Source: Nereocystis luetkeana (lineage: Eukaryota > Sar > Phaeophyceae > Laminariales > Laminariaceae). From it: a stretch of 64,000 bases of DNA. Positions 2 to 37,714 of this stretch are shown in pieces; positions within the stretch are counted from its first letter, which is position 1; every line of letters starts with the position of its first letter. The position numbers and the translations under genes are program-made. Location of the stretch: positions 9,675,324-9,739,323 of the forward strand of contig JARUPZ010000024.1 in the NCBI GenBank assembly GCA_031213475.1, written 5' to 3'. The notes below the pieces were generated by a model. The model was given only the letters and a program-made list of their open reading frames with translations. It was not told the origin of the DNA and made no database searches.

Positions 2-124
2 TCTTGTCCTACCCTGCGCCGCGTCCTATGGCCCTGTTTGTTGGTTTGGTTCAGCTACAATTCTGCCACTCTGCGCGCCTTCAATATATTGGTCGAGGCT
101 AGCGAGACCAAGAGCCCTAAGCAG
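2..124 (+). CDS. Probable internal exon upstream of the NPC1-like gene
   Basis: This frame is open from base 2 and ends in CAG followed by the donor GTGAGA at 125, phase 0. That fits the phase-0 acceptor of the next exon at 1288. The encoded 41 residues include a stretch reading FSYNSATLRAFNILVEA and are not clearly alignable to the NPC1 N-terminal domain. Support also comes from a degenerate copy of its last 30 bases plus the donor at 454-490. Its 5' limit and membership of the NPC1 gene are inferred. Confidence 0.4.
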
Positions 125-133
125 GTGAGATGC

Positions 134-430
134 GGTAGGAGCAACGACAACTGTAGCGGTAATTGTAGCAGTAACGGTAACGGTAAATGTAGCGTCAGCG
201 GTAACTGTATTGGTAGCGGTAACTCTATTGGTAATAGCGGCGGTAGCGGTAACGGCAATGGTACCGGTAACGGTAGCGGCAACGGTAGCGGCAACGGTAG
301 CGGTAACGGTAAGAATGGCTATAGCGGTGGCAGCGGTAACGGAAACGGTAACGGTAGCGGTGGCTGAAGCGGCAGCGGCAACAGTAGCGGTAGCGATAGC
401 GGCAACGGTAGGGGTAACGGTTGTGGGAAA
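134..430. repeat. GGTAGC/GGTAAC hexanucleotide minisatellite
   Basis: About 50 imperfect GGTARC hexamers start just after the donor at 125. Long open frames in all phases here are by-products of the repeat. A second, weaker stretch continues at 485-565. Confidence 0.9.
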
Positions 431-599
431 CCAATACATTAGTAGGATTACTTGAGCTAGCTCTACAAGCCTAAAGCGGTGAACACCGGGGGGCGTAGTA
501 ACGGCAGCGGCGGCAACGATAGTGGTAACGGCGGTGGTGTTGGTAATGGTGACGGTAGCGGGCACCTAGCCGTAGAGCTGGCTCTTACCTTCGGTTCTT

Positions 600-720
600 G
601 GATGATGAAGCTACTCTACTGTCTCTGCTGGGCTGTACTGTATTGTACTGTACTGCGCGGTACTTTACTGCACTGCCCGTACTATACTGTACTGTGCTGT
701 CTCTGTCTCTCTCTCATATA
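600..720. repeat. Degenerate TACTG pentamer-like repeat
   Basis: TGTACTGTATTG-type steps recur across this stretch and end in a CT-rich run. I see no coding signal between here and 1000. Confidence 0.6.
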
Positions 721-999
721 TGTTGGTGACGCCGGCGACCTCTGCAGTTGGTAATGCGAATGCAAGCAGCGTACGCCGACTACCGCCGCCGCCGCCGCCC
801 GTGAGAACCCATCGCTGTTGTCCCTGGTTTCGTTGCGCATTAAATACGAGTGCAATACCGGTGTTCCTTTAGTTTTTCCATACTACAGTAGTATGCCTTA
901 CATGTGTTCAGCTCGTTGTGCCCTCCGTTTGTAGGCCGTGTCACCCTCTCACCAAGTCATAACAAACTTCTGCTTTAAGGCATTATCGAAGTAATGTGT

Positions 1000-1275
1000 A
1001 CCCACTCCTGCAACCCTATACCCCTCACCCACAAAAAACACACCATAACATACACCTCACACATATCATACACCTCATGCACGCCGTTCACCTCATACAC
1101 TTTTGTGTGTTACTCCATGCACCTCATACACCCTATACACCCAACACACCTCGTGCACCTTATGCGCACCCCCTCATGCACCCCATACACATCATACACA
1201 CCATACGCCGCATACACCTGATATACCTGATACACCAAATATACCTGATACACGTGATACACCTGATGCACCTCG
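1000..1275. repeat. ACACC-rich minisatellite
   Basis: ACACCTCATACACC-like 9 to 12 base steps repeat through the stretch, giving spurious open frames rich in His, Pro and Tyr. It ends immediately before the acceptor at 1287. Confidence 0.85.
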
Positions 1276-1287
1276 TATACCGCGCAG

Positions 1288-4200
1288 TCCTTGCTAGGAT
1301 CTAGAGAGGGGCTACTTGATGCCGTCCCCTCCACGGAGAAACACGCCAACGGTCACGTCTCCAGAAATATCCGGCTCTCGCTCATGGTCGTCGACCTCGT
1401 GCAGCCGTACGTGGAATGGGCACCCCGACAAGCTTTAGCCACGGTAAGTCGAGATTTCTATTGCATCTGCCGTGCTTGATCGTATATCTAAAAAGGTTTT
1501 AAGGGTTAGGGATAGGTTGTATGTAGCTGTTACGGCTTGCTGACTATGGCTGCGGTGAGTCGGTGTGACAATATTTCATCGATTCCCACCTCATGATCTA
1601 CAGTAGTAATAGTGAACGTGCCAACCTCATACGTTTTTTTCGTGCCCGTGTCTCTCTTGATCAGGACGGTGCCGATGGGGATGCGAGCGTTATCGTTGCG
1701 GACGAGAATCGCGGCGTGGACTTGGAATGGACGGTGGGGGGCGCCTTCCAAGTGGACAGCACGCAGGTGACGGTGATGGCGATGATGATTATGGCTATGA
1801 TGGGGATGGTGGTGATGATGACGATGATGATGATAGTGGTGATGAGTGTGCTTATGCTGGTTATAGTGAGGGTGGTGGTGGTGATGGTGATATCAACACG
1901 CAGGTGATAGCAGCACGCAGGTGATAGCAGCACGCAGGTGATGGTGATGGTGATGGTGATAGTGGCACGCATGTGATAGCAACACACGGCTGATGGCTAA
2001 GGTGATAGTAGCACGCAGTTGCTGCAGCCGCACGTTGGTGACGGGAGCACACAGATCATACCGTCGCGCAGGGAATAGCAGCAAGTGCCTAGTAGCAGCC
2101 CACAGGCGATGGCGGAGGTCGATGTGGTGGAAAAGGTGTAGCGGAGGGAAGACGTTTGGAGGTGCGGTTAGATGGCGGTACTTTGGGGGCGGGGACGGGT
2201 TTTGTTCGAGCGAGCAGCAGTCTCGTCTTGGCGGTTCAATAACGACGATAATTCGCCCCTCTGCAATCGCCTGCTTGTCGTTTGATGCACCCGTGGTTGT
2301 GGTGTGCTGCGTTGTTGTTCTATGCTGTTCAGTGCTGTTCAGTGCTGTTCAGTGCTGTTCAGTGCTGTGCGATGGTGTCTCATATTAAGCTCAATCGCTA
2401 CTTCGTAAGTATGTTAATGCAGGCGGCATTAGGAATCTCACGGACTGCAGACCTGCTGAGAGGTTGGGCTATCGCGCCTTCTACCCTACAGTGCCACGTA
2501 GCGTGCTCTACCGCATACAAAAGCACCGGTGTCATGGTGTACCACACGCAGTACTACCATACAGCACTACATGCAGCAGTATCATGCTGTACCTGGTACC
2601 ACATACGTTGTACTCTTGACCTTATTTTTGCTATTTTCTTTCATCTTGCTCTTCTGTTGCTCCGCTCTTATTCTTACTCGTACCCTCACTCTCTTTCTCA
2701 TTCTTACTCTTATCTCACTCTCTTTCTCATTCTTACTCTTATCTCGCTCTGCTCCTGATTCTACCTTGGTTCTCCCTTACTCTGACTCCTACTCTTTCCC
2801 CTTATCCTGTCTTTCACTGTTATTTTTCGAGATCGATACTCTCTCTTTTACCTCTTTAGTCTTGTTTGTGTCTCCCTCTCCCCCTCCGTCCCACCCCCCC
2901 CACGATGTCACTGCCTTCAGCTCGTTTGGGGAGCATGGCCGCCCAACGCGGACGCCCTCTCGCCCGAGGCTTGGGAACACTTGGTGACCAAGGCAAATAC
3001 CCACTGCCACAGCCAACCACAATCCGGTATATCCCGATGGGGCAACCGCGGAGAGGGTACCTTGTTCCGGGATAGGTTTGAAATCGACGCGTCTGAGGGG
3101 GATGATGAAGCCGGTTTTGGTGGAGGCATGGCATTCGTGGTGGCTGTCGCTACCGTGGATCAATCCTGGGGGGAAAGGGTGGGGAAGGTTTGGCCGGATG
3201 TGGGTCCGCAGGTGAGATGTGGGAGGGAAGTGTGGGGGGTGGGCGTGAGGGGAGGGTGGGGAGGAGAGGCGGTTGTGTTTTACCATGAAGTATTGATGGG
3301 ATGGATATGAGGTGGTATGGGATGGAATGGGATGGGTTGACAGTAGGGTTGGGCGCTTGCTGACTCAGTCAGTAGCGATGATATTGTCGTCAAAATCAAT
3401 CAGTATACTGGATAGCCGCAGCTTATGTCTCCCCTCTCTCCTCTCTGCCCCGGAAATACAATTGGTGGGTTTCCGTGCTACCATATGGCGTGTTTCTTGG
3501 GCATACGTACGATAGAAAGTACTGGCGAATATACTCGCCAGGTCAATCAGTAAACCTACTGCCATTACATATTGTGCCAGTGTCCAGCCCTAAATGGTTT
3601 TGTATGGGATGATGTGAGACGATATAAGACGAGGGAATAATGAAATGTGCTGCTATTGGATACCGAAGGCAGGCGCTTTGATGGCAAGGTACGACCCCAT
3701 CGATGTTACTGATGCCTCTGCCGTCCCCCGCCGCCCCCTCTTTGCTCTGGTGAAACAAACAAACACACAACCGACAGAGCCATCTGGTGAACGCGCGCAC
3801 GTCCGAAGACTGGTTCGAGCAAAACGCCGGCCACATCGTCAGGGGCCGACTGAGATGGCTGTCCGCCCCGCTCAAGGTCCTCATAACCTCAACAGCTCAG
3901 TCTGCCGCCTTACAAAACGATAACAAAACCGGCGGATCCAATGGCCGCAATTACCCTGACCAAGGAGGAGGAGGAGGAGGAGGAGAAGGAGGAGGGTCAG
4001 GGTGGACAGAGGGAGTAGATATATTGGACCCAATGCTTACGCCGCAACACGGGCGGCCGGTGCAGAGGCCCACGGAGGCCACGGTGTCGCTGATGCCTGG
4101 GGTGGAGGAGGGGAAAAAGTCGAGCATGGCGCCTTTTACGCTCGTCTTCTTTGCCGTCGGAATGCTGGCCCTTGGGGTGCTGGTGCGGTCGAGAAGGAGG

Positions 4201-6456
4201 CTTTCGGGCAGTGCTCATAGTAGCTCAGCGGTAAGATGACGTGGGGGGCATCGTAGGAATTGCAATGCACGAGGGGGAGTATCAGGCGGGGTCCGGGGAT
4301 ATAATTTGTAGGTTGGCGGTGAGATGACTTGGGGGGAACAGTAGGAGCTGCAGTGCAAAGGGGTGAGGGGTTGCCGTGGCCCGGGGATTGACTCTTCCAT
4401 TTTGAATATCACATATCATAAGTCCCATACATACATCCTGCAGTTGTGTGTTTTGTGTTGTTTTATTGTGGACCTCTCTCATGTTGTTGTTGTTGTTGTT
4501 GTTGTTGTTCTTGTTGTTGTTGTTGTTGTGAATCTGTAACTTTGTTTTTTCACAGCCCCGCTAGAGAACTATCGCCCACAATAATACCCGAGAACTCGCG
4601 GACCCCCCCTCTCTCCCCTCTCCCCCTATCCAGAAAGAAGGGAGGGTGCATATTAACGCCTGCCCCCTCCCTCCCTCCCGCTTCAGAAATACAAGACGGT
4701 GCATGTAAACGCCCCCCCCCCCCCCCCGCCACCCCACCCCCCCCTCCCCCGTTTGATTGGTTCAATGGAATTTTATTTTGAGCAGAAGAGGCCAAGGCGA
4801 GTGGCTGGTAGTGTGGGTTCAGGTGTGGTCGAGGGTGGGAAGACGCTATTGGCTAGCCGCACGCCAGCGGACCAACGCCAGCGACGGAGACACCAGGAAA
4901 ACGTTGGCGGGGAGGGGGGTGCCGTGGAAATGAGAGGTCTCCTTTCTCCCATTGACGAGGCACCGTAGCAGCTTGATTTAGTCCTTCCTTTTGTTGCGGT
5001 TCAGTTGGTCAGGTTATTCCTTCGTTCCTTCCTTCATTCCTTTGAGTGCCAGTAGATGCTACGCAAATCGGACACATCTGGTCCCGGTGTGGTCATCTGA
5101 ATCTTGCGGGGGATATGACTTCCAATTTCCTAATTTGCACGATCTGCAAGATGTTCTGTGGATAACTACTTTTGAGTGGTATTCGTATGACACTGCTCTT
5201 GCACACATTGATGGCCGGGCGGGATCGTATGACACGGCTCTTGCAAAGGATCTCCTCACGGAAATAAATATACTCAGCAGGATCTAAACGAGCGATCGCG
5301 ATCTGCCCGATGTTTGTAGATATATCTTATTGTGCATCACCGGTATTTTTTGCGGAGGCTCTGGATAAGCGCAGGGGTTTTACGTAGCTGCTGGGTCTCT
5401 CTCGCGTACGCCAGCTCGCAAGTGTCGTTGCGCTTTACTGCTCCCTGCGCTGCTCATGTTTGTTGGTATATACGTTTCCTGAGGTATGTCGAAACCTGAA
5501 GGTTGATTTATGTGCGTCTTGGTGTCATTCGATCAAAGCGTGTCTATTGTGTATCCCAGTAGTTAATTGATGACCACGCTCTCAGTTGAATTCAATGATG
5601 TTTTTTTTCAGACAGACAAAATGGACAAACACGTACCAGGTACCAGGTATTGATTTTCCGTTACAGAGGACCCAGTAATCTGGGGAACTACAGAGCTGCA
5701 ACAATGTATCTGACACATAGAACAAAGCGAGAGTGCGAATCAGAACACTCAATTAAGAACCGCGCTCCCTGAACATCAATGGTGACAACTCTGTTTCGCC
5801 GTCGGCTTTTTGTTTTGTATTATTGGGCTCGTTTGTTGCTCCCTTTTCTTTGGAGGTGTTTACCGGCCATTTCTACTCGTACCTATTTTTTTTTTACTGG
5901 TACCACTCAAGTAGCATGGCAACGGCGCGGGGAGGGGAGGGGCTGATACATCGTACCCCGCCCCCTTTGCATGCCGCCATTTTTGGCCATCTTTGAACGT
6001 TGCAGCAATGATGATTGTGAGACTGCTGTACTCTTTACGCCCACACCAAGAGCGATGCGTGCACATGGTTTAGGCTCTGTGCCTGACCGTAACACTCCAA
6101 GAACTCGCAAGCTATCACCAGGAATTCGCGCAGCAGGATATATATTTAAAACTGATGCCAACTTATTGTGTACGTACGTTGGCCCAGGTCGGTCGGGTAA
6201 TAATCATTCTTTCTTGTAATTTGGGCTAATATTATTCTTATTATTCTTATTATTCTTCTTCTTCTTATTATTATTATGATTATTATTTTTTTTTCGCCAT
6301 CCGACAATGTGCAGAATGATCTTCAACATGGATCACTCATAACTTTCCCGAAAGAAGAAAACCTCGGAAACAAAAGGAAACCCATGCATCAAGTCTACCT
6401 CCCTTCCGTGCCAACTTTCGGCTTGTCTACTCTATTATTATTATTATTATTATTAC

Positions 6457-6553
<97 letters not shown>

Positions 6554-7037
6554 GTGATTGGTTCACTGTTTATAGGCGAAGTACGTACAGCAGTACCTTG
6601 TTTATTTTTCTCGTTTTTCCTGCCTGTGTTCGCGTGTAGTATGAGCAAGTATTAATAGTAGCCCATGCGGGCAGAAATATCTACCTAGGGATCAGCACAC
6701 GTCAACGCATAACTTTTGCGCTGATTCCACAGCAGCAGTAGTATATCCCATACTCCAACCGGCCATTTCTCTTTCTTTTTTGTAGTCCCTGTAGCCCGGC
6801 TGTGGGATCGAAAACCAATGCCCTCGATACTTATCCTAGTCTTCACCCTGCCCTGTGACCTGTGACTGCCTCTAGCCGTCGTGACGCTCGGGAGAACCGG
6901 TTCTCACCCGGGATTCTGAAACCGAATACTCGTACCTGGTATAACTTTTTTTGAAGATCCCGAAGTTTACGGTACCAGAACCAGAGGTATGCTACTACAC
7001 AGTATACTGATTACTACTAAGTAACTGTTGTTGTTGT

Positions 7038-7093
<56 letters not shown>

Positions 7094-10000
7094 CTCACGT
7101 TAACTCACAATACAATGCAGTCCGTGGTCGCAGGACAGGCTCCAATAACTCTGGAGTGGAAGAAATACCTCAAGTAAAACAGAGGCAAAAACAAAAAACA
7201 AGCATACGCACTCCACCACTGCGGACACCAGGGAAGCAAAAAGCAGACTATTAATAGCAGACAAAAACCTAAAAAAGAAGATGAAGCGAAGCAAAAAAAA
7301 CAAGACAAAATAAAAACAGAAGCAGATAGCAAAACGCAAAAAACGGCAAAACGGACCATACTAACAAAGACACAAAGAGGTACAAACGGGAATGAAAGAA
7401 AAATGAAAAAAGAAAAAGCAAAAGGAAGGGACAAAAAAGCGATAATCACGGGCGGGGGGGAAAGAAAAGACGAAAGGCAGGCACTGGAGCATACAGACAC
7501 GCAACGTTGCCCAGATGGCACCATGCTAGTTACTTGGGTCCCAAAGAAGGGAGTGCATCATGACGATGATGGCCATAACCAGGCTTCAGTCTGCTGGGCA
7601 GACCGCCTTTCCCCCCCCTCCCCCCCCCATTCCCCCTCGTCCCCCTTTCGCCCCCCCCCTCTTCCCTGCCATTCTGCGCACTCGCGTTGGCGTCAACGGC
7701 TGTGGTCGTTGTTGCAGCTATTCTATGCCGTTCTGCCGATGCCTCCTTCTCATCTGTATGCCATTTCCGCATGAAGGCCTCCGCCCCTTCGTCGACCCGT
7801 CGGAACCATCTGCCGGCTTTCTGTGCTGCCTCGCGCCACCCTTCGAGCTTGATGCCGAACTCTATGAGGTCCTCCTCAAGGTACCTCATCCAGTCCCACT
7901 CCTTTCCTCCGGAGTAACCCTTACCCCCATCCATCTCCCCAAACATCACCCTCTTCGGCAGACGCTCCTCTCCCATGCGTGTCACAAAGCCCGCAAACAA
8001 GAGCCTACGTCTGAGTCTGCGTACCGTCGTCTCAACGCTTTCAGATTTTGTCCTGAGAAGCGCGCTAGCATAGGATAGAATGTGGTCTTCGCGCTTTCGT
8101 TTTCGCCAGCCGATGCATCGGAGGAGCATTTGTGGTGGACCTCCCGTAGCCTACCGTAATCAGTCTTGCTCGGGCTCCAAGCAACGCAACCGTAAAGCAA
8201 CGTTTCGATCACCTCGGCTCTCAGCATTCGCACCTTCAGGCGTAGGCGCGCACCCGGGCGGTCATAGATTTCCATCTTATACCGTCCGAAGCATGCCCAT
8301 GCCCTCTGGAGTCGACGCGTTACCTCGACACTTCTGCCCGTCCAATCTGCGCTGATAGCCCCGCCCAGATACACAAACTCGGTCGTTTGTTTGTACACTT
8401 GGCCGGCGGCGGTGACGGTGAACGGCACGTTCCCCCCATCTTTCGTTTGCAGACACATTATCTCCGTCTTGGCCTCCGAGACCGTCAGGCCGAAAGCGGC
8501 ACACGCAGACACGATCACCGTCATCATCCTCTCCAGGCCGTTGGGTGATCTCGATACTATGCCTGCATCGTCAGCATGGAGCATAGCACACAGTGTCTGG
8601 GCCTCTTTATCATTCCCCTGTCCGTCGGCGTGCCCGACCCGTGCCTACGTGTACCTGGTACACTACAACACACACATCTACTGTACTCATAAAACGAATG
8701 ACACATTTCATAGTCTCCACCGTGCCGTGTGACTGCCTCTTAAAGATTTCGTAGCGCTCGGGAGGGCCGGTTCTCACGTTCTCACCCGGGATTCCCCTTG
8801 AAAACCGCAGTCCCGTTTTGGGGACAAACTACTTGGACTTAAAAAGGGTTGCCCCCAAAACGGGACTGCGGTTCTAAAAGGGAACAACTTTTGTTGAAGA
8901 CCCCGAAGTTGCCAAGTTTTACTTTGGCTCCAGAACCAGAGGTATGATCCTACTTTTTTAGACTGGTACCAGGTACCTGGTACGTCAGCTGTGAGTTCAA
9001 CCGATAGGCAGATCGATCCATACTCAACTTTGCAAGCTGCGTGAACCGATCGTGCGTTTTTCATTATTTCCCTAGCGATTGACTACTGGCCGGTAACTCC
9101 CCTGGATGCTACCAGGGTCGACGAGACGATAATACTTGTACCATTTCGTGCACTGAAAACAGCAGATCGACACACACTACACCTCTACTCATAAGTAGAA
9201 TGGATGACATCCTTCATAATCTAGTACTGCTGCACATCGATACTCACAAGCAACCCGGCACTACGCTTGCCGACCCACCAGTGCGCAGTCTGCTGAGCAA
9301 GCTCTAAAAATCATTCCATCGCTGTACGTTCCATGAACGGGGAGGCACATCCTACGTGAAAGCGGGAAGGGGGAGAAGGGGGGGTGTGGAGTTTTTGTTG
9401 AGAAACGCCTTTTACATGGAACACCGGATTTCTACGTGTCCAAAGTGCTGCTGCTGCCCTTCTGCTTGTCCTGTTGTACAGGGCGTGTGCTTGGCCATGA
9501 AGAGCTGGCTATGGTAAGTTCATGAGAAATGTTTCAACACTATCATCCGCCACACTTGTCACACGTTCAATTCCACCCAGTGCTTGAGCTTGCGGAGAAA
9601 ACGACCGCCAACTCGACGTCAACTTCGAGGACCTCGTACCTCCTACCTGCTCTGACTCGTTGATTTTGTGCTTGTTTTTCTCTTTTGTTCTCGACTTGCC
9701 GGTGTCCACAATCGTCAATGCACCAGGCGATACAGCGTCAGCGTTTGCAGACGACCTCGCCAGGTCATATCTGCTTGTGTGGCGGCGACATTAGCGTGCT
9801 CGTTGGGGCTGGTCCGAGTGCGAGTGATCACCAACCCTGAGCTTATCTGGGTGAGTCATCAGCCTCCGTCGTACATCTGTGTCGTTTGTGACGAAGTGCA
9901 ACTTGGTCGCTTGACTCGCTGGTCTGCCAAGTTGGCAATACAGCAGTACCAGGTACCAGTATGTGTCAATTGCCTCGTAGGCTGGTACATAGGCTGGTAG

Positions 10001-13000
10001 ACAATACCAGGTGCTCTATCGTACGAGTAGATTGTCTGTTTCGTACGAGTAGATTGTCTGTTTCAGCAGCTAACATCGCTACCCAATATATTTCTCACCT
10101 TCTTGCGTACTATTACCTGATGTAGGTACGAACTCGTTTGACACCAGGTACCAGGTACCAGGTACCAGGTACCCTGGTATGAAACAGCGTACGTCTGGCA
10201 CAGCAGTACTAATACCGGTACACCACCATACGTGTACTAATTCATAAGGACCGTTTAGGTATTAATATGAAGACCCAGACGGCCCCTATATTTTCGTTCC
10301 CGAGTGGTATATGGTACCAGGTCGTATATGGTACGGGATGACAGTAGGAAAAAGTCGCCTCCGACGGACAGCAATAGCTTGTACTGCTGATACAGCTGTT
10401 GTATATTGTTGTGCGTGTTTTTGTGAGGTTTGTGTTGGGCGTTATCTTCACGAGCTTCACTTCACCTCCAGGTGGAGCTTAGCTGGCGGCAACACGACGT
10501 CTTGTGATACTGCGTGAGGCACACAAGCGTGCTGCCAAAGTATTCCACCTGCACGCAGGCCCAACCGCTAAAGAGGAAACGGGACCACCAATACCCGACC
10601 GCGAGCGAACTGCCACTGTCTCCAGCGTTTGAGTCATTTCCCCCCGCGTGCGCGCCGACGCACGGCTAAAATATACCGGTATCATATGAAGCAAGTGTGG
10701 GTGAGACAGCACAGCGGCCGGTAGGTGGCTATTCACGAACGAAGGAACTCAAGGGAGGTTGGGTAGGGCCACCGATCGGGGCAGGAGGCCTCATCCAATC
10801 CAATGCTTATATTGAATGATCGTTGGCAGCAAACTACTGGCTGTAGTATATCGTCGTATTGAACGTGTTTTCCCCTTCATCCCCTGGCATCCCCGTGTTT
10901 TTGAGGCAGAAGCAGAACGAAAGCGTCCATGTACCAACTATCGAAGCCGTATCGATTACGATAATTTCTTTTGTTTATCAGCATCTATTAATAGGTATCG
11001 TATCGAGCTCGACTCTCGTTGGACAAACAACAGTAAACGGGAACATCTTCGGGGAATTAATGCAACTTTTTGTTTGTCGTCCCGGCGTTGATGTCGTCAG
11101 GTGCCACCGAACAGCCTGGCAAATCGGCAAAAGGAGTTCTTCGATGAGGCCTTTTCGCCCTTTTTCCGCGTCAATCAGGTTCGCTTACTGTCATGGCTTT
11201 TCATTGTGTACTCTGCTTACTGCATAACAATGTAGTATCGCTGTGTACCACAGAGCTTGTATCTCTCTAGGAGAAGAATCGGCACGGACACTGACTGGTT
11301 TCGCTGTATGTCGAGGGGTCGAAAGAACGTTTTAATGTGAAGAACACAAACGCACTGTACGCTTTTTGACCATCAGTGGCAGTCGAAGAATTGTAATTGT
11401 GGACAGGTGACGATCTGAATAATCTGGATCCTAGCCTCCCATTATGACATGTTGTGTACGATCTGTACATCGCAGATCCAACCCAAAAAACATGTGCTTC
11501 CACCCGGCACCATGGGCTGGATCGTATATACGAAGTATCAGGAATGCATCTGGCCTGAAATATCTAGATCGTGGATCAGTCCGGGCGGCTTGGTGTAGGC
11601 GATGTTGTACTAGTCACTCTGTTTCGACGGGTTTTCCCTCCCAAGTCTGATAGCCCCAAAGGGATTAATTAGCATTCGTTTGCTTGCTTTCTGTACAATG
11701 TGGTAGTGGTACATATGCGGTTCGTTCGTTCGTGTCTATTCTCAACGTCATCGGAAGGGCAGCGGAATCGTACGCTACACCCAAAGTTCGTTTTCCGACG
11801 ATGAATTGAAGCACCAACCTTTGTTGACCGACTGCGATGCCAGGTGTTCTTCGTCGCAGAAGCGGCTAACGACGGCGACGGCGGTGACGCGGACATGCTC
11901 CAAAAGCAGTACTTGCAGCGAGTCATGGGCGTCCAGAGAGCCATCGAGGGCGCCTCCTTCGTCAGCGCTGTGGACGGCGAGGCCAGAGGGTTCGAGTCGC
12001 TGTGCTTCAGACCCATAGACGGAGAGGGGTGCCTCGTGGAGTCTCCCTCGCAGTACTGGCTTGACGACCCTGTTCTGCTGGCGGGGGACCCCAGCCCCAG
12101 CCTTACAGCGGCGTGCCAAACCAGCGATACCTTTCTGGCGTCTAGGAGCCCCTGCATGGACAAGGTGGGTGCTTCGTATGTTCTTCTCAGGGTGGAAATG
12201 TAAGAAACGTTCGGGTTTGGGTCTTTTATACGCCAGCGGTCTTTTTATTTCCTGTCAGAGTGATACGGAACAGGGCACCTATACTATGCTAAGAACACGG
12301 ACACTGAGAAAGCCAGCCTGAGATTTACAGGAAAGTAATACGTTTGGGAGCCATGATACCTGCAGCAGCATTTAATCGCCGCTATAACTCGTACCAGCAC
12401 ATAGTTTGTTATTACTGAGGTGTCTTTGCTGCGATCAGCCGGAGACTCTCACCGAGGGTTACTACCCTCGCGTTGATTCGAAGGAAATCAACGAGGCGCT
12501 CAGGGGATGCTCTTCCTGCATCCCCGGTTTTGTATCCAAAACCACGAAGGTATTCTAGTACGTACCTTACTTACCTTATACCAAGAACACGAGCGTTGAG
12601 AAAGCCAGCCTGAGGTATATAAAAAAGTACGAGCGTTGTGTAGAAGGTAGTGGACTCCAGTAGATGGACTCCAGTAGATCACACCCTTTCCCAGACAATA
12701 AATCGACCCATCCAGCCAGAGCCAGCATTCCTGTTTCTTATTCAAAAGGTCTATTCATAGGTACCAGCCTATAAATTAATAGGTGTATATGTAGGTCTGT
12801 TAATACCTGTCCTGTACTAATGCAACCCCGCTAGAAATAGAACATTGCTGCACCCACGTTTCATGGATATAACTACTTTCGAGTAAAAATGAGTGTTTTT
12901 TTTTGTAGTGGCAAAATGGTGAACAGCAGCAGCCAATGAGAGGCGCTGTTTTTCGCTGGCCAGCCTAAAAAGTACGTTATTTGACACGCATCATACCAGG

Positions 13001-16000
13001 TATTTCAACGGCATTATTATTAGAAACAACGGTTTCATGTTAGTAACACACACGTATGTTTGGTAGATATTAGGAAAGTTGTTTGTTTCTTCGATGTGTC
13101 GATTTCTGCCCTATCCCAAGGGTTTGGTGCTCGAGCGAGTGACGTGTTGTCTTTCGCTCACTCGGTGTTGCCAGCGATGCTGTGTGTCGCAACGCCAGTG
13201 CGCGACTGGGCGATAGTATCAACCGTCTTTCGTAATGTCGATGATAGGCGCGGTTTTCAACGACCGATATCGTATGTGTAACAGAGACGTTGCGTAGCTC
13301 GGGAAAGTACGGTGTTATTCTTAATGGCGGTAATTGTTGGTGCTGCCTGCAGACCTACGAATAGCACCCGCCATCGTGTTTGTCAAAACAAAGCACGCGC
13401 CCCTCCTGAATGTCGCCTCTTCCCAGATTGGCACTCCCGTGATGCGCGAAGTGGTGTTCGGTGACATCGGAGTTAACCCCGACGTCGTCAGCCCGGACCC
13501 TTGCGGAGGGAGCGTGCCCGCGGCTGGAGCGCTCGTGCTTACCTTCCTTCTCAACAACTACCAGGATCCCGAGTATCAGCAGGTGGCGGAGCAGTGGGAA
13601 AAGGAGGTGAGGGGCACGAAACAAGGCTTGGAGCTATCAGGTACTACATAGATAGAGAGGCAGGAGGGACGAGGGGGGGGAGGGGGGGGCGAGGTGGGCC
13701 CTTTTTAGCAGTAAAAAATGGAGGTGAGAGCCACGAAGAAAATCTTGGAGGTACTATTTAGAGGGCGAGAGGCGGGCGGCGGGGAGGGGTGAGGGGGAGG
13801 GGGGGGGGCAGGTGGGCCCTTTTCCCGTTCCAAAGAGTAAATACCGATAAATGTTCTTGATAATGGAGAATGTGATAGGGAGATAGGGAGGTGTTTCCGG
13901 TGGGGGAAGGGTGTGTGATCTTTGCTTCCCATCATGTACGGATTCAGCACACGGTGTGCGACATGGACATATTTTCGGGCGTCAATGCAACATCACAACA
14001 ACCGAATCGGGTTTCGGTTTTTCGGAACGTTTCTCTGCTAAACACAAACTAACACGAACACGAAAAGGCTCCCGACATTTTTTTTCGGTGTTCGGTGATC
14101 GCATACGAGTCCCAGTCGTCTACTGGTAATACCAGTATTCAACACCTCGGGCAGATCAGATAGATTATCGATTCCCACTTGATGATCTACACATTGCAGG
14201 GCAGATGATCTGTATGATCTGTATGGTCTAGCTCATGTAGCCAGGTGGGAGCCGTATATTCTACATGATCTAGGACATGTTTCCTGGGTTGGATACGTAC
14301 TACACAGACCCTGCACGACATTTCGTGACGGCAGGTTGGGATGTAGAGTAGAGTAGATGATGTAAATGGTCTATCTGATCTGTGCAAGATGCGGAGTATA
14401 CAACACCGAACGTGCAATACCGAGCACTAAGCACCAGCCCTTGGTCATTACACGGGAGCCCATCAAGCACAGCAACAGACCATCGAATGTGAACGGCAGC
14501 TCTCACCTCTATGCGTTTTTTTTTAATCGCGCAGGTGTTTCTGGCGGTGGTGGAGGCGGCACAAGCTCTGCTGGAAAACGACGTACAAGCCCCAATGAAG
14601 GTACATACTGTAGATACATGACGATGGGTTAAAGTACAGGTATACATACACGATGGAGGTACAACACATGCATCTATACATGATCAAGGTACATGCATAC
14701 ATACACGATCAATGTACATGCTCACATACACGATCAAGGTACATGCATCGATTTAGAATACCAGTCTCAACTGTGTGCCTGATGAAGTAAAACACCGTAG
14801 AGTGGCTCCTGTTAGGATGCGGTAGTGTCCATGGCTGCACAGCAATTATGTGGCGCATACTCGGTACAATGCTGCGATACTTGTATACTGCTGCGCACAA
14901 GCCCTGCCATGGCGTGCGCTTTTAAGTGGTGTATTCGCGTCACCACGCGAATGCTGGCGTGCTTTTATCCTCTACGTGGTGCTCTCGGCAGTTCGTTGTT
15001 CTTGTCGACCCTCGTTACATGTCTCCACACTCGATCACACTACTTGACGCAAATACCCTGGTAAAACGTATGCTAGACATCGTCGATACTGTTGTACGAT
15101 AGACCGCCACCTTGGTTTCCTTTGCAAAGCTGGTCCGGATAGCACAGCAGTGGTCGAATACATTCAGAGTCTGTTGTTTTGTATAGACGCATGCACGGAA
15201 CTACACTATTATGGGGGACCATATTAAATGGGACCTGCTGTACACACCAAAACCTATATATTTCGCTTTTTTTACGAACAATATTTGGTCCTAGCTACTA
15301 TGGTCCCCCGTAATAGGTTGGAGGGGGATCTGTTTGTGGCTGACAGCATGTCGATACCCCCTTTACTCGCTGCTGTACCTGCTGTACTTGCGACATACCC
15401 TCAGCTTGCCTACGGTGTTGAGCAAATCAAGTACTAAAGACCTGCGATTGCTGCCTCCAAGGGAAAACTGGAAACCACCCCGATTCCGTGGAGGACACAG
15501 CCAATCTAACCCCGCCCGAACCTGTTTTTTGTTTTTTTTTATCTAATCTCTTGTGCTTGCCCTATTTCGTAAGTCTCCAGCTTCCCCCCTTTCGTAAGCG
15601 AGGCCCCTTAGTAGGGCCGTATGGTCACATAGCGGGCACTCCTCCCCCCTCCCTACTACGGTGCTCGCCTTCGTTTTTATCGCGGGAAAGGGCCTAGTTC
15701 ATCTTTTTTCTTCCCTCGTCGACTATCCTGACCCCTACCCCTACTAGTGCTGTAACCCCACCCGGTTTACCCGGTCACGGCCGATACCTCTATTTCCCCC
15801 CTTCACCTGATGCAGGTGTCGTACATGGCCCAACGGTCTGTAGCGGACAGCTTGTCCGTTGAGGCTGGCGAGAACGCTTGGGTGCTGGTGGTCTCGTACT
15901 TGTGCATGTTCCTCTACGTGTCTCTTATCCTGGGGAACCCTTGCCACGCCGTAAGGTAAATCAGCTGAAATCGATGCCTCCATGTCGGTAGCAGTATCCC

Positions 16001-19000
16001 GTACCATAGGCGCCATGCTATACAGTGACTCAGCGGAAATCGACGACTTGTTGTATCATATCGATCAATTTTGGACCTATTAATAGGTGCTACGCCATAT
16101 AGTGGCTCAGCGGAAATCGATGCCCTATCGTACCAAAGCAATTGCCACCTATTCACCCATTTGGAACCTAATAGTTAAAGTGCCACGCCATTTTAGTGAC
16201 TCAGCGGAAATCGATGCCCTATTGCAACATAGCAGTAGCACGTATCGATCAATTTTGGACCTGTTAATAGGTGCTGCGCCATAAAGTGGCTCAGCGCAAA
16301 TTGATACCCTATTGTACCATAGCAGTAGCCACCTATTCACCCATTTGCAACCTTCTGTAATAATAAGTGCCACGCCATTTTAGTGACTCAGCGGAAATCG
16401 ATGCCCTATTGTATATAACTCAAGGAGGGGGGGGCAGGGGGGTGTTCACGTCTGTCGGCGATGACTTTGGGGAGCTAAGCAAGGAACGCGAGAGTCCATG
16501 TTTGTTTTTTTTAAAGGATAACCTCGGAACGGCAAGAGGTGACGTGGGGATACTCGCATGATGAGTGAGGAAATCGTGGGTATTGAATGGGTAGGAGAGC
16601 AAGTAACATGCTCAGACTGGGGTGTGCTTCACGTTGGCTTCCTTGTGGGGAGTGGTGGGTTGAACGCGGTGTCATCAATGCAACGCGTATCATCCTCACG
16701 TGCCAAATGTCATACTTCGTATGGTTTCTGCCACTCTCCATCTCACGAATGCCACTTTTATCATCCGGAGATAGCAGATATCATTTTTTTTTCTGCCACG
16801 TGCTCATGTCTCGGAAAACAACGTTTGTCATGCTGAGATACACTACGGTAGGTGCCAGATTTTCTATGCCGTACACCATTCGACCAATGCAACACGTATC
16901 GTACTAAGATGCTAGGCGCCGTGTTTCTGCATGTCATAGGTCGAGGTACTCCCTGGCTCTCACTGGAATAACGATCGTGGTAGCCAGCCTCGCCACAACG
17001 ATTGGCCTTCTTTCGTTGGCTGGGGTCGGAACCACCCTGATCGTGTGGGAGGTACGGTTACCCGGCGTGGGCCCTTAACGCTTCCCGCTACACGGGGCCG
17101 AAGTGCTGCCCGCCGCATCGTCGTGCGATAGTTGCAGTCGGCACCTTGCCATTTGCGCTTCAAGTTTGTACTTGGGGCAGTACTGTATATAAAAATAACT
17201 TTGAAAGGGGCAGTTAGTGTGATGGGTGTATCTGAATGCGAGAAGCAAGGCCATCCCTCCGCACGCTTTGTACAAGGGGAGGGGGCGGGGGCGTACTCAT
17301 TTGTTGCTTGCCTTTATCATTTTACAATTGAGTACGCATCCCTTTCGAGGCGGAGCACCGTTCCAACTCCTAATAGAGGCACCTCCAACTTTTGGGTGCT
17401 CAATTCAAGGGGGGGGGGGGGGGGGTTATGTGGTTATATGCTTGAAATGGAGGAGTAGCTGGCGTGTTTTCTCTTGCAGTAGTCGCGCCACAGCGCCTCG
17501 TATTACGCTTCGGAAAGTGCTCAATAGACGCAAGATTACCGCCTTGTAAGTTTTTGGCCTCGAGTAAGGTATGCGTTGGTGTCCATAAGACATACCAGGG
17601 TACATGGTAGGCTACTAGTGACAAGGCTCGTTCGTTAATACAGTAGTTGGGTGGCGAAGTAAGCCAACTGACGAAGTTACTTTTCACCAATAACAAATAC
17701 ACACCCGTCGAGCCGCAAACGCGCCAGTCAGACTCAAAGGCACAGAACGCCGCCTAGTACCAGCACGCAACTATCGGTAAATACCTAGTCAACCAATAGC
17801 TGGTCTTCGATTTGTATTCAAGCAACCCTTAGCCCTAACGTTCTTCCTCGCGGACGCGTTGTATGATAAAATGAAGGCTTCGTTCGATGCAGACCGACAT
17901 CGTATCGTGTTCGCTTTGTTGCTTTGCCCCACGCTTTTGGTGTGCTTCGTGCGATGGTGCCGATGGTGCCTGGACAACGGCGCGTTCCTTGCTGGCAGGT
18001 TGTTCCATTCCTCACGCTCGCAATCGGAGTGGACAATATGGTGATCCTCTCGAGAGAGTTCGACAGGTGAGGAAAACAGCCACCAACCCATGGTGCACTT
18101 CACCGCGCCAACCGTTGCACGAGCAAGGCTGCTGGGGTATGCTTTGAACTACAATACGTTCGCAGCAAGGGTTAGGGCGAGGGTCGGAGTTTTTCTGCAA
18201 ACTTTCGTTTTGTTTGGGCATGCTTTCGAGCATAATTTCAGCGGAAGGCTTGCCGTCACGAACGGTACACCCTCTGCAAATGCGTGCGTTTTCTCTCCTG
18301 GCCTACCCCCCTCTCCCCATCCCTACTTGTATGCGACGTCGCCGACGGACTGAACGGTCATCGGAGTCAGCCCTATTGGCAGCAGCAGCAGCAGCCAACA
18401 TCGCGAACATGCTACAAGTGCGCCTGTAGAAACATGCGCCGAAGGATAAAATGGTTGTTTTGTGACGTGCGACGCGAAACTCCTACCAAGGTATTACGGG
18501 GGGGCTAATGTTGTAATCAGAACCCACGAGGGACCCAAAAATCACGCATTCCCCCTATATGTTTAAAAACGAAATCTGGTTCTGATAACTATGCTCCCCC
18601 TGACAGCAAGAGTTGGCCCTCCTCCCTCCTTTTTCTTGGCATCTCTTCTGTGTTTGTTTGTTGTTTGCCAGACTGGAAGCGGCTCCCGAGTTCGAGATTA
18701 GTGCCCCAGGTCTCTGTGGCACGAAAGGGATGCAGTCTGGGGGAGCCACTGGGCCAACGTACGCCTGGGCCGGCTCGAGATCGATGAGGGGGAGCGAAAG
18801 GACCGAAGAGTTTAGGTTGGAAAATAGGATGGGGGCCGCCGTGTCCAAGGTATGGTAGAGCCGAATGACCGTCGCCTGTAGCTTTTACCGCTCGGCTGGG
18901 GGGGGGCGGCGGCGTACTCATGTGTTGCTTGCCTCATTCATGTGACCATTGGCCACGCATCCCTTTCGAGACGGAGTACCTTGGGGGGGAAGGGGGGGGG

Positions 19001-19595
19001 GGCATTTTTTTTTTTCCGGTGTCGGGTGCTGCTTAAGTTTTCATGTCGTTCGCTGTAGACTATGTTTTACACGTATGGTGCATACTAGGTAAAAATCAAA
19101 GATAAGAATACATGTTTCACCTGGTACGTGTGATATGATATTGCAAATATTGTCATACTTCGTAGATGTTGCGAAGCGTCATTTGTTTTCGATCGTGTCT
19201 GCCCCCACCCTTCGCTCCCCTTTCAGTCGCACATCACTTTATTTTTCAAGTGCAACGGGGGACGGTATGTGCAATATGTGCATGCACACTTTCCCGTTTT
19301 TGTCTGCTCGTACTCCGCTGGTTTGTGATGCCGGTGCCGTCTTTGTTGACGCTGTTGATGTGATGATGTTATGGGTTTCCATTGTTTCATACGTCGAACA
19401 GCCCATCTGCAGACAGATCAGCTAGATCATCTAAATCTTCTAGATGATCTAGACCCTAATCTGCTGTTTTGATATGTTGTGCAGAGGGTTTGCATACCAC
19501 AGACCCAACCCGGGCAGCATGCCCTACGGAGATCATGCAGATTACACAGCTCCCACCTGGCAACATGAGCTAGATGATCATACATATCAGGAATA

Positions 19596-19633
<38 letters not shown>

Positions 19634-22600
19634 CCATGAAGGATCTAGATCATCAAGTGGGAGTGATCTGTGTGTTCTGTAGATGATGTACCGGAGGTGT
19701 GGAAGGATCGTGTGCTCGTGCTTCACGCTGATTTTGTGATGCCGCTGCCATCGCCTTGGTTGCCGCTGTTGTTGCGGCTTCGCACAGGTGGCTCCCTCCA
19801 TACTGGGTGCGGCCGTGTGCGAGGCGGTGGCCTTCTTAGTCGGCGCCCTGACGGACATCCCTGCTCTGCGACAGTTCTGCCTCGTGGCTGCAACCGCTGT
19901 GGCGGTGGGCTTTGTGCTGCAGGTGCACGGGACGGGACACAACTGCTCACAGCAGTATCGTACAGTATCGACCCTCCCGTAGGAAACCTGTAGTCAGATA
20001 GTGTGAAGATCTTAGGCTTATATTATGTTTTCCTTATTTTGGCGAAGCGAGAAGAGGGGTGAATTCTTACAAGTTCCTTCAAAGACGGCGAGCGCCTAGG
20101 CTGCATATTTTATTATTTTGATTCATTTTTTTCTAGGCTTGATTTCTTCAAGCCTGTTTGTCACGAGAGGGTCGATACTGTACAGTAGCGCGAACTGCTT
20201 CTGGAGGCAGGCCCTCCTTCGCTTGTCAGCGAAGCGCACTCATGTCGTTTCAAGCTATATACGGGAGGAGGGAACACGTCTACTCGTCCGCGAAGCCCAG
20301 GCGTGAACATGTTTTTGTTTTCAGTTACAGTGATTTTCGGCATGTGTGTCGGCCTCACTATCTAGGCACACGTCGATTCGTACGCAACGTTTGCCCGCAG
20401 TATTTTGTGGTCATATCGCTGCATCTCCTTCCGTGTCTCGTGCCGGCTTGGACTCCCTCTCCAAACGTGGCTTGTGCCATAGCGTTTACATTTGGTCGTG
20501 GCACTCTGCTCCTCGAGCTCACGAGCAATTACGTTCCTTGAGCACACGAGCAACGAGCACGCAGTAACAGTAAAAGGGCCATGCGACGTTTTTCTGCTAG
20601 TGGAAATAGTATCGCACATCAAATCCAAGTAGAATGCTCCCAAAAACATAGGCTTCAGTTCGAAAGGGATTCAAGTCGTGGTAATGAATTTGGCGTGATG
20701 TGTTCGAACAAATCCCAATCACTGGCAGGTGACTTGGTTCATGGCCGCCCTGTCTCTGGACGCCAGAAGAGTCAGCCAAGGCAGGCTCGACCTCGCCCCG
20801 TGGCTGAAAAGGAGAGAAACGAGGGACAGGTGCGATGCCGAGGCACCATTTTCCCTTTTCTCCCGTTGCTTAACTCTTTGAGGACTGCACGGTACAGAAA
20901 CCTACACTACCAAATCTGACTCTAACTCCCGGTATGCCCCCCCCTTGAAAGTGGGAGCAGTTCTGAAGAAGTTAGGCCTTTTAACTCCTTCAGGACTGCC
21001 CTATTTTTTCTGGCACTGATTTCGACGTACAGTAGTTTGCCCCCATAATCGCGGGTACAGCCGTAAAGAGCAGCAATGCGTTCACGGAATGGCTTCCCCT
21101 GTGTGCACGTCCCGTCCCGGTGTGCGTCGTGAGTACTGGGTGGTATTGAATACATGGTGTTTGCGGTATATGGCAGGCACCTTGTGTGCATCACTGCGTT
21201 CAGTCTTGCGCCAGTGACGCGCTTCAGAAGGAGTGTCCCAGTGCAGGCGCGTGTCCGCGCGTCTTAAAGAATGCCGTCGTTGTCTACTAGGTATTCTGAT
21301 ATGAAGACAAGAGGGGGGCTCTATGTGTAGAGTTGATGACCTTTACTTTCCCAAGAATAACTAAAGACGGGTTATTCCCCCCCCACCAAAGAAGAGGTTG
21401 CGGTTTCCCAGTACCAAAGACGGGTTGTGCCCCCCGCAAAATAATTGATCGCCGTTCCCCAGTACCGGGGACATCATCCCCGCAATACCCCCCCACCCCT
21501 CATCCTGCTTGCTTCGGTTCTGTTGGATTCGAATTTGTGGGCAGAATGATGCGTGCTACGATAGAAGTCGCACTTTTAGGGTCAAAACATTTTTCACTGC
21601 TTCCTTAATACACTCCTGCACCGGGTAGCTCCCCAATATATTTTTTAATCCCGTTTATCTTTTACAATATTACAGATATATTTTGACACGTGCTAAGGTC
21701 GAGGTTCACCCATTTGTGTGTGAGGTTCCTCGCTTGAGGAGCTATATACTGTTACTATTAATATTGCTATGGTTGAAAAAGTTGAAGTGCACTGGTTGAC
21801 GAACAATCCCATGGCCTACTGTAGGTGGGTGTACAAGGACTAAAATCGCAAAAATTAAATGTCGTTCGGACGATTTTGGGTTAAGGAGCGCCCCCCCGGT
21901 CATTAAAAAAATAGCTTAGACAAAGGTGCTATCCGTATCGTAGCAGGCGTTATTTTTTGTACACCCACTGTAAGCCATGGGGTTGTACATCTTGGTTTGG
22001 TGTTTCGTTGGTATTTGGGCGAGGTAGAGGCCTCCTCAGGCAAGGAGCCTCATGGATTTTAGGACATGTATTTCATACCCCTACCGTACGCAGCACGCGT
22101 CCAACTCATGTACCATGTATCGACCATCCGCCGCGCACCCCCCCCCTCCCCCCAACCAGTTTTGATCACTTCAACAGCGAATCGCGAGGGATCAGCTTTC
22201 CGCTCATGCGGGGGGAGTCCCCGGAGCACCAACTCGGGTCTTCATTCCATCGTTCTGGCGTGGCTCCACCCGGTGCCGCCAACTCCGGCAATGCCGATGG
22301 CGACTGGTCCTCACCAGAAGACACTGTGGCAGAAGCCTTCAACCGCCTTATAGGCGGCGGCGGCGGAGATGACCGCGATGACCAATACTCTCGGCATTAT
22401 CGAGCTCTCACGTCTGAGTTTGGATCGGGCAGTGAAGCCAACCCGGCGTTGTTTGCGCGACGCGCTGTGAGGCCTTCTGCAGACACAGTAGCGACTCGTT
22501 CAAGGCGACGAACGACAGGGCTTGACGCCACAGCTGGTAGAAATCCCCCCCCCCGCGGCGGCGGCGGCAGCAGTATAGTAGGGGGAGCTTGCGATGGCAC

Positions 22601-25600
22601 TATCGATAGACGAACGGTTGGCGGTAGCCATAGTGGTGGCGACGGCTCCTTGTGGCCGGGACAACGATTAGATCGCGGCGGAGACAGGCGGTGGTTCGAC
22701 GACCCGAGCTCCTACGACGACGATGACGAGGTTTTCTTCGAAGGGATCGACGCGAACGAGAAGAGTCGCAGCAGCTCCAACGTCGTTCACGAGGAGCGCC
22801 CGCTACTAGGAAGCTCCTCTGGCGAGGCTGAGAGCAGCACCGGTCGGCCGTGGAGAAAGCCTGACAAAGGCAACGCCAGTGCTAGCGGCCTCTCAGGCGA
22901 GGCTGCATCTAGCAAAGCGGGCGGTCTGCGCCTGGCGGAAGCAGACCACTTCGTTCTTGGTGGTGACGTCGTTGAGGGGTACGTCTCTCTGGGGCCTGAG
23001 GTTCGCCGCTGCGTGTCGGGTGACGGTGGGGGGGGTGGGTTGCTGGTCTCGGGCCCTCCAGATGACAGCGATGGGAAAGGGGCGGGGGGCTTGTCGATGT
23101 TCCGGGAGCAAATGTATGAGGAGGGGCGTCACAAGGGAAACCTTGCGTCCAGGTGATGATGCTGATGATTGGGATGCTGATTCTGACTAGCATGATGGTG
23201 AAAATGATGATGATGAAGACATGAGGACAATGATGGGGGTGATGTTTACAATGACGGTGGATGTTATGGTGATAACGATTATGAGAATGACTGATGTTTC
23301 CACGTACGTATCAGGTAAAACCAGGAAGACCTTACTTGGAAACCTATATTTTTTCGAATGTGTTCATATCGTACGTACCGGAGTTGAAGAGGTTTTCGTG
23401 CGCAAAGGGCGAGTGGGGGGGGGTTAGTCGCTCTTGCGCAGGAGGATTGACATTGCCCATGAGGTGCTGCATGAGGGCCAGGTAGAGTCCTCCGCTACGA
23501 CCTGTCGCTGTTGTCGCGTATGGTGTCTGACTGCAGAAAATGCAAAGGTTCGTGTGTGGGCGTTACACCCGAAGGTGTCACACCGTAGTGCTGTGCAGGC
23601 CAGGGCCGATTGCTCGGGCAAGTGGTCGGGGCAGGAGGAGGACATGGAAAGCGCGGGGTGGTGCAGCCAGAACGGCCGCCCTTTTTTTGTTTTCCCCTTC
23701 TTCTCCAAAATCCGGACAGCGCTACAACCCAGTTGGTCGGCTGCCCTCGCCTTTTCCCCTGTTACCTACTTGCCCCTTCTCCTGCGTACGATCAACCTAC
23801 AGACATGTAGAGGCTGCCACACCTTGGATAGCTCACCGCTTCATTGTCCCGCCCCGACCGTTCGCTTACGCCGTCTCCTGTGCGTTGGGCATGTGGAACG
23901 GTTCGGTCTTTGCAGATTATTAAACAGGTACTATCTGCCGGCGTTGTTCTCCCGCGGGGGGAAGACTTTCACTCTCAGTGTGGCGGCCGGACTGGCCGTG
24001 CTGGGAGGCTTTGGTTTGTCGGGGCTGGAAATGGGCTTAGAGCCGCAGCTTGCGGCGCCTACGGATTTCTACCTCCAGGCGAGTTTTTGTTTGTTTTGCT
24101 TGCTTGGCTTGACTTTTACTGGGCGTTATTGTGTCGCTTGTTTTCCGCCTTTTCCCTGACTTTTCGGGTTGGGACTAGCTTTTTGATTGGTTGATTGTTG
24201 TTGTTCGTCGTTGTTGATTTTGATGCTCGTGCTGTTGTAGTTGGCGTTGTTGTCAGTGTTGTTGATATTTCCCAGGTAACTGTATCTGCAGTGATCATTC
24301 ATGGGGCATGTACATGTCTTGTATACGTTTTCCTCTTTTTTCCACTATTTGGAGTTGTCTTGGCCAATATTGCTGGATTTTGCTAGCTCGACGCGATGCG
24401 GTACAGTGGCCGACACTGTTTCAACGAAAGCGTTTTTGACACATCCTTTTGTTGTAGCAGGACTACTATCAGGCGCAGTTCTCTTTAGGAGAGGCAGGGC
24501 CGCCAGCTTACGTGGTGTTCGGGGACGTGGACTACTTCGGGGCCTTCAATGACCCAGAAGTTAGGCAAAGCTTCCAGGGGGTTTCCACCGGCCTCGCTCA
24601 GCTACAACGGTGAGTCACCCCCCCTCCCTCATGTTTCCTACCCAAGCCAAACAAATACAGCGATTCCATTATGTATTGCCGCTATTGCCGCATATCGTGT
24701 GTCTCGGAGGTGGGAGCTGATGAATGGTACCGGTGTGTCGTATTTTTGAACCGTACTACTGGTCTAAAATAACACACACCCTCGTCAGCCTAAGTCGTGC
24801 GGAGGGTGACCGCCTGTGTCCGTCCTATGGGACACAGTCTTTTCCCCAACGTCTCCTGGAAGTGACATCATGAAAGAGAACTTCTACTAGGGGCGGAAAG
24901 GCGGTGTTGTTTTCCTATCGCTACCCGAGGCCTGCTCTAAGTGATACTATAAAGGGGAGGAAACCATGTCGGGACAATCGGTATGTGTTTGTTCATTTTG
25001 GGATGGCATGAAGGAGAAGCGATGATGGGAAAATTCGTACGTGTTCATTTCTTGGACGGTTTATGGAAAAAGATATGCTGATACAATCCGTCTCGGTTCA
25101 TTTGTTTTGTTATGGGTCTTGTCCGCGGCAATGCCGTCATGAGCTTGTCCCAGGGTCTCTACGTAGATGACCCCAAATTGAGATGCTGTATAACTTAGGA
25201 GGGGTGCCTCTCGATATGGCATTGGAGACGGGTAGAACCGCTATGGCGGACACGGGACTGGTCAGAAGCCTTCTCTCAGAAGGCGTGTAACTCCCTGCAA
25301 CCTAGTATATAGCAATGCTGCTGCGCTACGACTATAAGTAAGAAGTGTTAGGTGCATCAACATGCACGGTAGTGATGCTGAGCGACTAAAAACTCAGTTT
25401 TCGGCGTAGTTCCACTATTCCCCCGTCCTATGTCTAATGTTATAGTGCGGCTAAATAGCATGGAAACCCAATATCACAACAGTTTCCCTTCGCCCACTGC
25501 CGACGAGGCGACGAACCGCCTATCAATTTGCTCTGAGATCGTTACCATATCGGAACCGCGTTACTTTCGGTGAAGGGGTGTGTAACCGCCGTGAGTCGAT

Positions 25601-36298: not shown

Positions 36299-36740
36299 AC
36301 GAGTCTTGGGGTGCCCGTGGCCCCGAGTGTGTACATTGTGGATGAGTTTCGGTGCGTGTGGTTTATGGTTTGGTTCGTTGACATGTGGTCTGTGTGTCGG
36401 GTATTTTACGCTTTGCGGCGTTTTTGTCGCAGGGCGCGTGCTCTTTTTATCGGCGCGCGGCGCCTTGTTTCGACCCATTGCGGGCGAAGGGGGGGGGTAT
36501 GTTTCGGGGAAAGGGACGAAATGCACACTTTTTTTTTGTATTCGTCCCAAATCGAATGATGGAGATGACATCATTTATCTCCTAATGAGGTTCTTGGTCG
36601 ACTATGCTCTGTTTGTGTTGAGCGATTTTGTTTCAATAGTTGGGAATGTTGATGCAAGCTCACAAGTGAGCTTTAAAGCGGGCGTTTGTTTCCCCAATGC
36701 CTGCACTCCATGCTCACGTACCGTTTGAATTGTGTATAGG

Positions 36741-36997
36741 GTTGTTAGATGCCCTTTGGAGTACTATTAATAATGTGATCGTTAACGACAAAGTCAGATA
36801 AGTTGGTCGGTTGCCTGGCTTGGCCGTTCGCAAGCGTTTTGTGAGGCACGCGCTTCTCAAACGGACGGGGTTGTTAGATGCCCGTTAGGGTACTATGAAT
36901 AATGTGATCGTCTACGAAAAAGTCAGATATGTGGGTCGGCTGCCTGGCTGGGCCGTTCGCAAGCGTTTTGTGAGGCACGCGCTTCACAAACGGACGC
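36741..36997. repeat. 129-bp tandem duplication
   Basis: GTTGTTAGATGCCC starts units at 36741 and 36870. Each runs through AATGTGATCGT, AAAGTCAGATA and GTTTTGTGAGGCACGCGCTT, differing at few positions, so it is recent. Confidence 0.9.
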
Positions 36998-37714
36998 GGA
37001 CGCACGCCCTTTACCCGCGAGCCCTTGGGTGGCAGGACCCTGGGTGGAGGTGACCACAGCACAAGCACTATTGGTGACGCCACTCGCACGCGTTCGAAAC
37101 TTGCGCGCCAACCAACCGCTTCGCCTAAACGGGCGTGCAACGTAGGCGACAGCCCTGCTATACCGGCGGGGATCACAACCGGCAACCAATCGACACGCAT
37201 GATCCATCCAGATACGTATCCACGATCTCTCCACCAGGTTCATGTAATGTATGGTGAGTATAACCTCAGCCGCCGGCATACATTCAGTTTAAACTGAAAA
37301 TAGTTCCACCGTTCGCCCGCAATAATACTTGCAAATAGGCCTGTTGCCACTCAGCTGGCTTGACACTCGACGAATAATATGTACGTTCCCACGTGAGCCT
37401 GGTGGTCTTCCTAAGCACGAAACACACCTCGTGCTAGGCAGGCGTGATTACTCCATGAAACTATGGATTCGAGTGAAGGCGGGATTGCAAGAGGTGGGGG
37501 CACCCGTGTTTCAGCAAATGAGTGGTACTCAGCTTACAAATGTACCAATTTTTAATAGCCAGGTTGGACTCACAGCACTCGATTGTGTACGCGGAAACAA
37601 GCAACCAGCGCTCTTTTGCGGGATGTATACCGTCAGACATCAGTGCTATGTCATTCTATTGACGCTTGGATGCCTGACGGATATGATGGATCTGCATGGG
37701 AAAGTGGGCTTCCG

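Follow-up and report, generated by a model that had tools for sequence, protein, structure and literature searches.

Tandem duplications spanning 5' splice junctions in introns of two neighbouring Nereocystis luetkeana genes

Do the 5' splice junctions of long introns attract tandem duplication, or are they merely included now and then when an intron grows by repeats? This question is raised by a stretch of 64,000 nucleotides from Nereocystis luetkeana (GenBank assembly GCA_031213475.1, contig JARUPZ010000024.1, positions 9,675,324 to 9,739,323 of the forward strand), hereafter called the window, which carries an NPC1-like gene and, upstream of it, part of a second gene. A preliminary description had reported that six of 27 introns in one NPC1 gene contain tandem copies of their own donor junction, and had proposed such junctions as hot spots of duplication. 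We could recognize four clear junction-spanning tandem duplications, which are spread over two neighbouring genes. The earlier observation was therefore partly right: it is real yet over-stated, and the enrichment at donors is suggestive and unproven.

Self-alignment showed that tandem copies span the exon-intron junction at donors 1767, 4231, 13607 and 15956 (Table 1). At donor 1767, positions 1757-1795 are identical to 1928-1966 at 34 of 39 bases (lag 171), with more copies at lags of 137 and 154. The pair at donor 4231 (4220-4300 and 4308-4388) agrees at 58 of 81 positions without gaps, and at donor 13607 the segments 13590-13705 and 13707-13823 give 90/124 in a gapped alignment (lag 117). 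For the array at donor 15956, the best ungapped lag is 146, and the best local alignment (47/65, gapped) joins a pair that lies farther apart than the ungapped one. A 23-base pattern (up to 3 mismatches) is present at this donor and in its four copies, and at no other site in the 64 kb. The ungapped lags put the copies 69-171 bases downstream of their donors, with matches covering about 37-124 positions. A self-blastn recovered two of the four duplications, those at 1767 and 13607, with the same starts (1757-1795/1928-1966 and 13590-13705/13707-13823); it missed the 4231 pair and returned only downstream copies of the 15956 array, missing the part that reaches the donor. The units at 4231 and 13607 have no other blastn partner within the window. 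These old copies have diverged, agreeing at about 72-87% of positions, and we therefore rejected an assembly error as their source. Junction-spanning copies have added sequence to these introns.

Exons were picked by hand from the sequence, with an open spliced frame as the check, and the donors in use were deduced from the frame and, in the NPC1-like gene, from homology as well. The resulting sample comprises 43 introns from three genes: five from the upstream gene, 24 from the NPC1-like gene and 14 from an FN3-domain gene that served as an outside check. It leaves out any introns between 37 and 54 kb of the window and the FN3-gene intron starting at 54780, whose acceptor was not located. Ungapped self-alignment (score at least 14, lag below 500) gives four introns of the 43 in which the first copy extends across the donor, and these four also come up at thresholds of 12 and 13. 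A tandem copy spanning the acceptor was found in 0/43 introns at lags up to 500. Shuffled introns (60 shuffles for each of the 43) never attained a score of 14. The junction-spanning duplications thus exceed chance. Four weaker junction matches, scoring 8 to 8.5 (introns 35473, 23153, 61203 and 56980), were treated as chance.

Of the other two introns of the preliminary description, 14601 is a candidate only, and 125 was not confirmed. At donor 14601, the similarity spans just -6 to +6 and scores 9.5, a value matched in 1 of 60 shuffles; at a junction score of at least 9, 0.65 of the 43 introns are expected by chance. The best junction match of donor 125 (score 12, lag 108) leads to the intron's own short-unit array and includes 3 exon bases only. 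The site claimed for this intron, 479, is not that match, and its donor score of 4.54 lies below all 43 modelled donors.

Have the duplications left competing donors behind? We scored the copied sites with a matrix trained on the same 43 donors that it scores (range 5.48 to 11.88). Three decoys differ by less than 1 bit from their respective true donors: 1938 (9.51, against 9.25 for donor 1767), 4319 (7.0 against 6.93) and 13724 (9.46 against 10.37). Decoys 1904 and 1921 score 8.6 each, and 14689 and 14739 reach 7.41, the same as their true site. By their sequence, all seven look usable. Poor values were found for 14659 (5.31), 14714 (1.99) and the above-mentioned 479, and for the GTs of the two copies scored in intron 15956, 16025 (1.04) and 16102 (-3.45); none of these looks usable. 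In a frame test of 11 decoys, 14714 not among them, the retained piece contained a stop in 10, and the use of 1904 led to a frameshift and a later stop. The spliced frame is open across each used donor, and three junctions of the NPC1-like gene sit where the product aligns to NPC1. Because use of a decoy gives a stop or a frameshift, selection should hold the upstream donor in use. In three of the four duplicated regions the modelled donor has a look-alike of about equal strength, and these introns are good material for studying how the spliceosome chooses the first of two near-equal sites.

The next question is whether donors are special. Our tests of enrichment and breakpoints are post hoc and concern one window. 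At a score of at least 15 the modelled introns contain 18 tandem blocks, four of them over a donor. We consider it probable that ordinary tandem duplication in repeat-rich introns happened to include the donor, as a by-product of intron repeat growth. This explanation is favoured because 14 of the 18 blocks miss the donor, and because the interior share under first copies alone predicts 1.17 to 1.64 donor-spanning introns (P 0.013 to 0.058 for the four observed, across three thresholds and with the simple-repeat filter on or off). When any copy is counted, the expectation is 1.78 to 2.55 introns, and P rises to 0.07 to 0.23. The background of this coverage test includes the junction-seeded arrays, so that it works against an excess. 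Slippage or break repair would produce local tandem duplications in introns that are long and prone to repeats; in four of them, the copied segment would have started 10-17 bases upstream of the donor and carried a donor copy into the intron. The original upstream donor would stay in use, since it keeps the reading frame, and the copied donors would be tolerated as little used, their use giving a premature stop or a frameshift. No donor-specific hot spot would be needed.

Several observations weigh against this explanation. When the blocks were placed at random (20,000 placements), 0.84 donor crossings were expected against the four observed (P=0.008), although this placement let blocks start no earlier than -40 and may thereby tilt the result towards an excess. 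None of the 18 blocks crosses an acceptor. Six of the 18 start at or before +60, against 2.25 expected (P=0.016), and of the 2286 bases in tandem copies (unfiltered, score at least 14), as many as 1054 fall in the first fifth of their introns. The exon tails of the copies are short, as discussed below.

The crossing blocks, the bare acceptors and the short tails would fit a mutational hot spot, in which breaks linked to transcription or R-loops occur close to the G-rich starts of introns and are repaired by tandem duplication, the resulting copies starting shortly before the donor. The first 50 intron bases indeed show a G-over-C skew of +0.11, against -0.17 in the last 50. We nevertheless regard such a hot spot as unlikely: the coverage test gives only the P values above, the ends of 3 of the 18 blocks lie no more than 60 bases from an acceptor, and the arrays of introns 14601 and 15956 are not G-rich by eye. 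The FN3 gene has a donor-spanning copy in 0/14 introns. Since its introns are also without tandem blocks, it is a weak test, which says little on the hot spot and more on uneven repeat content among genes. Overall, the comparison of donors with other intron positions by self-alignment, which the preliminary description had proposed as a check, yields in the 43 window introns four donor-spanning cases against 0.84 to 1.64 expected, an excess that is modest and suggestive and that fades when any copy is counted. Donors as duplication hot spots are thus weakly supported. If they were such hot spots genome-wide, this would tie the position of splice sites to mutation and explain in part the growth of long introns.

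The most interesting feature is the position of the breakpoints inside the exon. Relative to the donor, the copies start at -10 (1767), -11 (4231), -17 (13607) and -14 (15956). Under uniform breakpoints, tails this short have a product probability of about 6e-4 (smallest lags 137, 88, 117 and 69; post hoc), a pattern that rests on four cases. Either a mechanism linked to the donor or selection against longer tails could account for the short ones. Under such selection, duplications reaching deeper into the exon would form a strong false exon end and be lost, so that only those with short tails remain. Tails of 10-17 bases in 4/4 cases are what it predicts, in a sample of only four, and we give it a rather low chance of being the explanation. 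The strongest form of the donor-linked mechanism, in which tandem duplication in this lineage is directed by the 5' splice site, is a speculation that we think still more doubtful: strand switches or breaks at about -10 to -17 would repeatedly copy the donor into the intron, and donor-seeded arrays would be one of the chief means of intron growth and a source of reserve donors. Ordinary duplication that happened to include the donor stays our preferred explanation.

It is also conceivable that the repeats are remnants of intron birth. In the Rogers model, an exon piece holding AGGT is duplicated in tandem and an intron is born, the duplicated segment supplying both GT and AG. Some copies here have AG/GT donor contexts, and in Daphnia internal repeats are reported to mark new introns more often than old ones (61.1% vs 16.2%; PMC4202315). 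No acceptor-spanning copy was found in the 43 introns, however, and direct repeats between the two intron ends, the signature of such a birth, showed no clear excess: at a score of at least 9, one was seen (intron 14601) against 0.34 expected, and at 10 or more there were none. We consider this origin highly improbable.

Table 1. Genes, introns and repeat features of the window (positions in the window)
Feature	Position	Strand	Remarks
Upstream gene, partial at window start	2..4564	+	open spliced frame, then stop; 5 introns
Upstream gene introns	125-1287, 1444-1664, 1767-2920, 3212-3777, 4231-4555	+	model from reading frame alone
NPC1-like gene	9497..36298	+	spliced frame open; 24 introns modelled; model begins at 9497, true 5' end may lie upstream
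FN3-domain gene, partial	54781..64000	-	spliced frame open; Pfam fn3 5.3e-24; 14 complete introns
Duplication at donor 1767	1757..1966	+	copies at 1895, 1912, 1929; look-alike donors 1904, 1921, 1938
Duplication at donor 4231, 88-bp tandem unit	4220..4388	+	begins 11 bases inside exon; look-alike donor 4319
Duplication at donor 13607, 117-bp tandem unit	13590..13823	+	begins 17 bases inside exon; look-alike donor 13724
Imperfect array at donor 15956, first unit over donor	15942..16413	+	copies at 16025, 16102, 16196, 16383
25-bp array of intron 14601	14631..14748	+	+30 to +147; has donor 9-mer AAGGTACAT; candidate for junction membership only
6/12-bp array of intron 125	132..561	+	begins +7 after donor 125; no convincing junction copy

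Introns 125, 1767 and 4231 had been assigned to NPC1; they belong to the upstream gene, for which an identity with NPC1 was rejected, since its frame ends in a stop and its product has no NPC1 similarity. In Pfam this product had no match at E≤1, and in PDB none better than E 0.044; by eye, its C terminus resembles that of a type I membrane protein and is followed by the stop. The product of the NPC1-like gene contains NPC1_MLD (middle-luminal, 2.8e-24) and Sterol-sensing (1.2e-15) domains according to Pfam, and matches NPC1 in PDB at 2.8e-42. One scan of viral contigs revealed no relative. Two of the 43 modelled introns open with GC, not GT, and are thus GC-AG introns (24079 on the forward and 59589 on the reverse strand).

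The window harbors further repeats and elements. A dispersed repeat of about 70-210 bp was found by self-blastn in both orientations in five introns of the NPC1-like gene (14155-14383, 19411-19589, 26519-26707, 30255-30466 and 11429-11499); it is possibly a small mobile element. Two neighbouring introns that flank one exon share a 53-base stretch with 79% identity (12285-12337 and 12577-12629). Intron 18850 contains a diverged pair (19302-19360 and 19710-19774), the second copy of which stops 13 bases short of the next exon. Downstream of the NPC1-like gene there is a direct tandem pair of 129 bp with about 90% identity (36739-36999). Between the upstream and NPC1-like genes, a reverse-strand frame (7982-8644) resembles a reverse transcriptase (Pfam RVT_1, E 2e-06; its 28.1 bits fall below the cut-off of 29.6).

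How do the four duplications compare with known systems? Their copies lie head to tail within the intron, as in intronic minisatellites or tandem arrays. Sharing across introns of the kind known from introners was not seen in the window: three repeat patterns match their own gene region only, bar one hit, a 13-base pattern found with 2 mismatches at 55248 and expected to match 1.96 times by chance. In the literature, covered in part by titles and the openings of abstracts, we found no paper on established introns that describes tandem duplication across the donor as a hot spot. Related cases are known. In potato, a tandem duplication over an exon-intron boundary copied splice signals (PMC4974935), as here; there, the duplication took in the 3' side of an intron, and a new one came into being, whereas in our case the donor side was copied within the intron and nothing points to an additional one. 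Two gained introns of fission yeast are reported to be built of tandem repeats (PMC3629103), and novel introns of Drosophila to have direct repeats at their splice sites (PMC2809761). For Ectocarpus, large introns are reported together with a fairly uniform distribution of tandem repeats along the genome (PMC12477816); such uniformity is mild evidence against the view that repeats grow especially in introns. A 2025 survey of 213 introns likewise describes direct repeats near intron borders (PMC11782384); its comparison is between the 5' and 3' borders, whereas here the second copy lies inside the intron and the ends are without a clear repeat excess. In Daphnia, internal direct repeats of newly gained introns were ascribed to staggered double-strand breaks and to the growth of young introns, proposed as a passive trend to longer introns (PMC4202315). 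The copies described here differ in lying 69-171 bases past the donor with about 37-124 positions matched. They share with the Daphnia repeats that they are internal and go beyond chance, with junction scores of at least 14 in 4/43 introns and none in shuffles.
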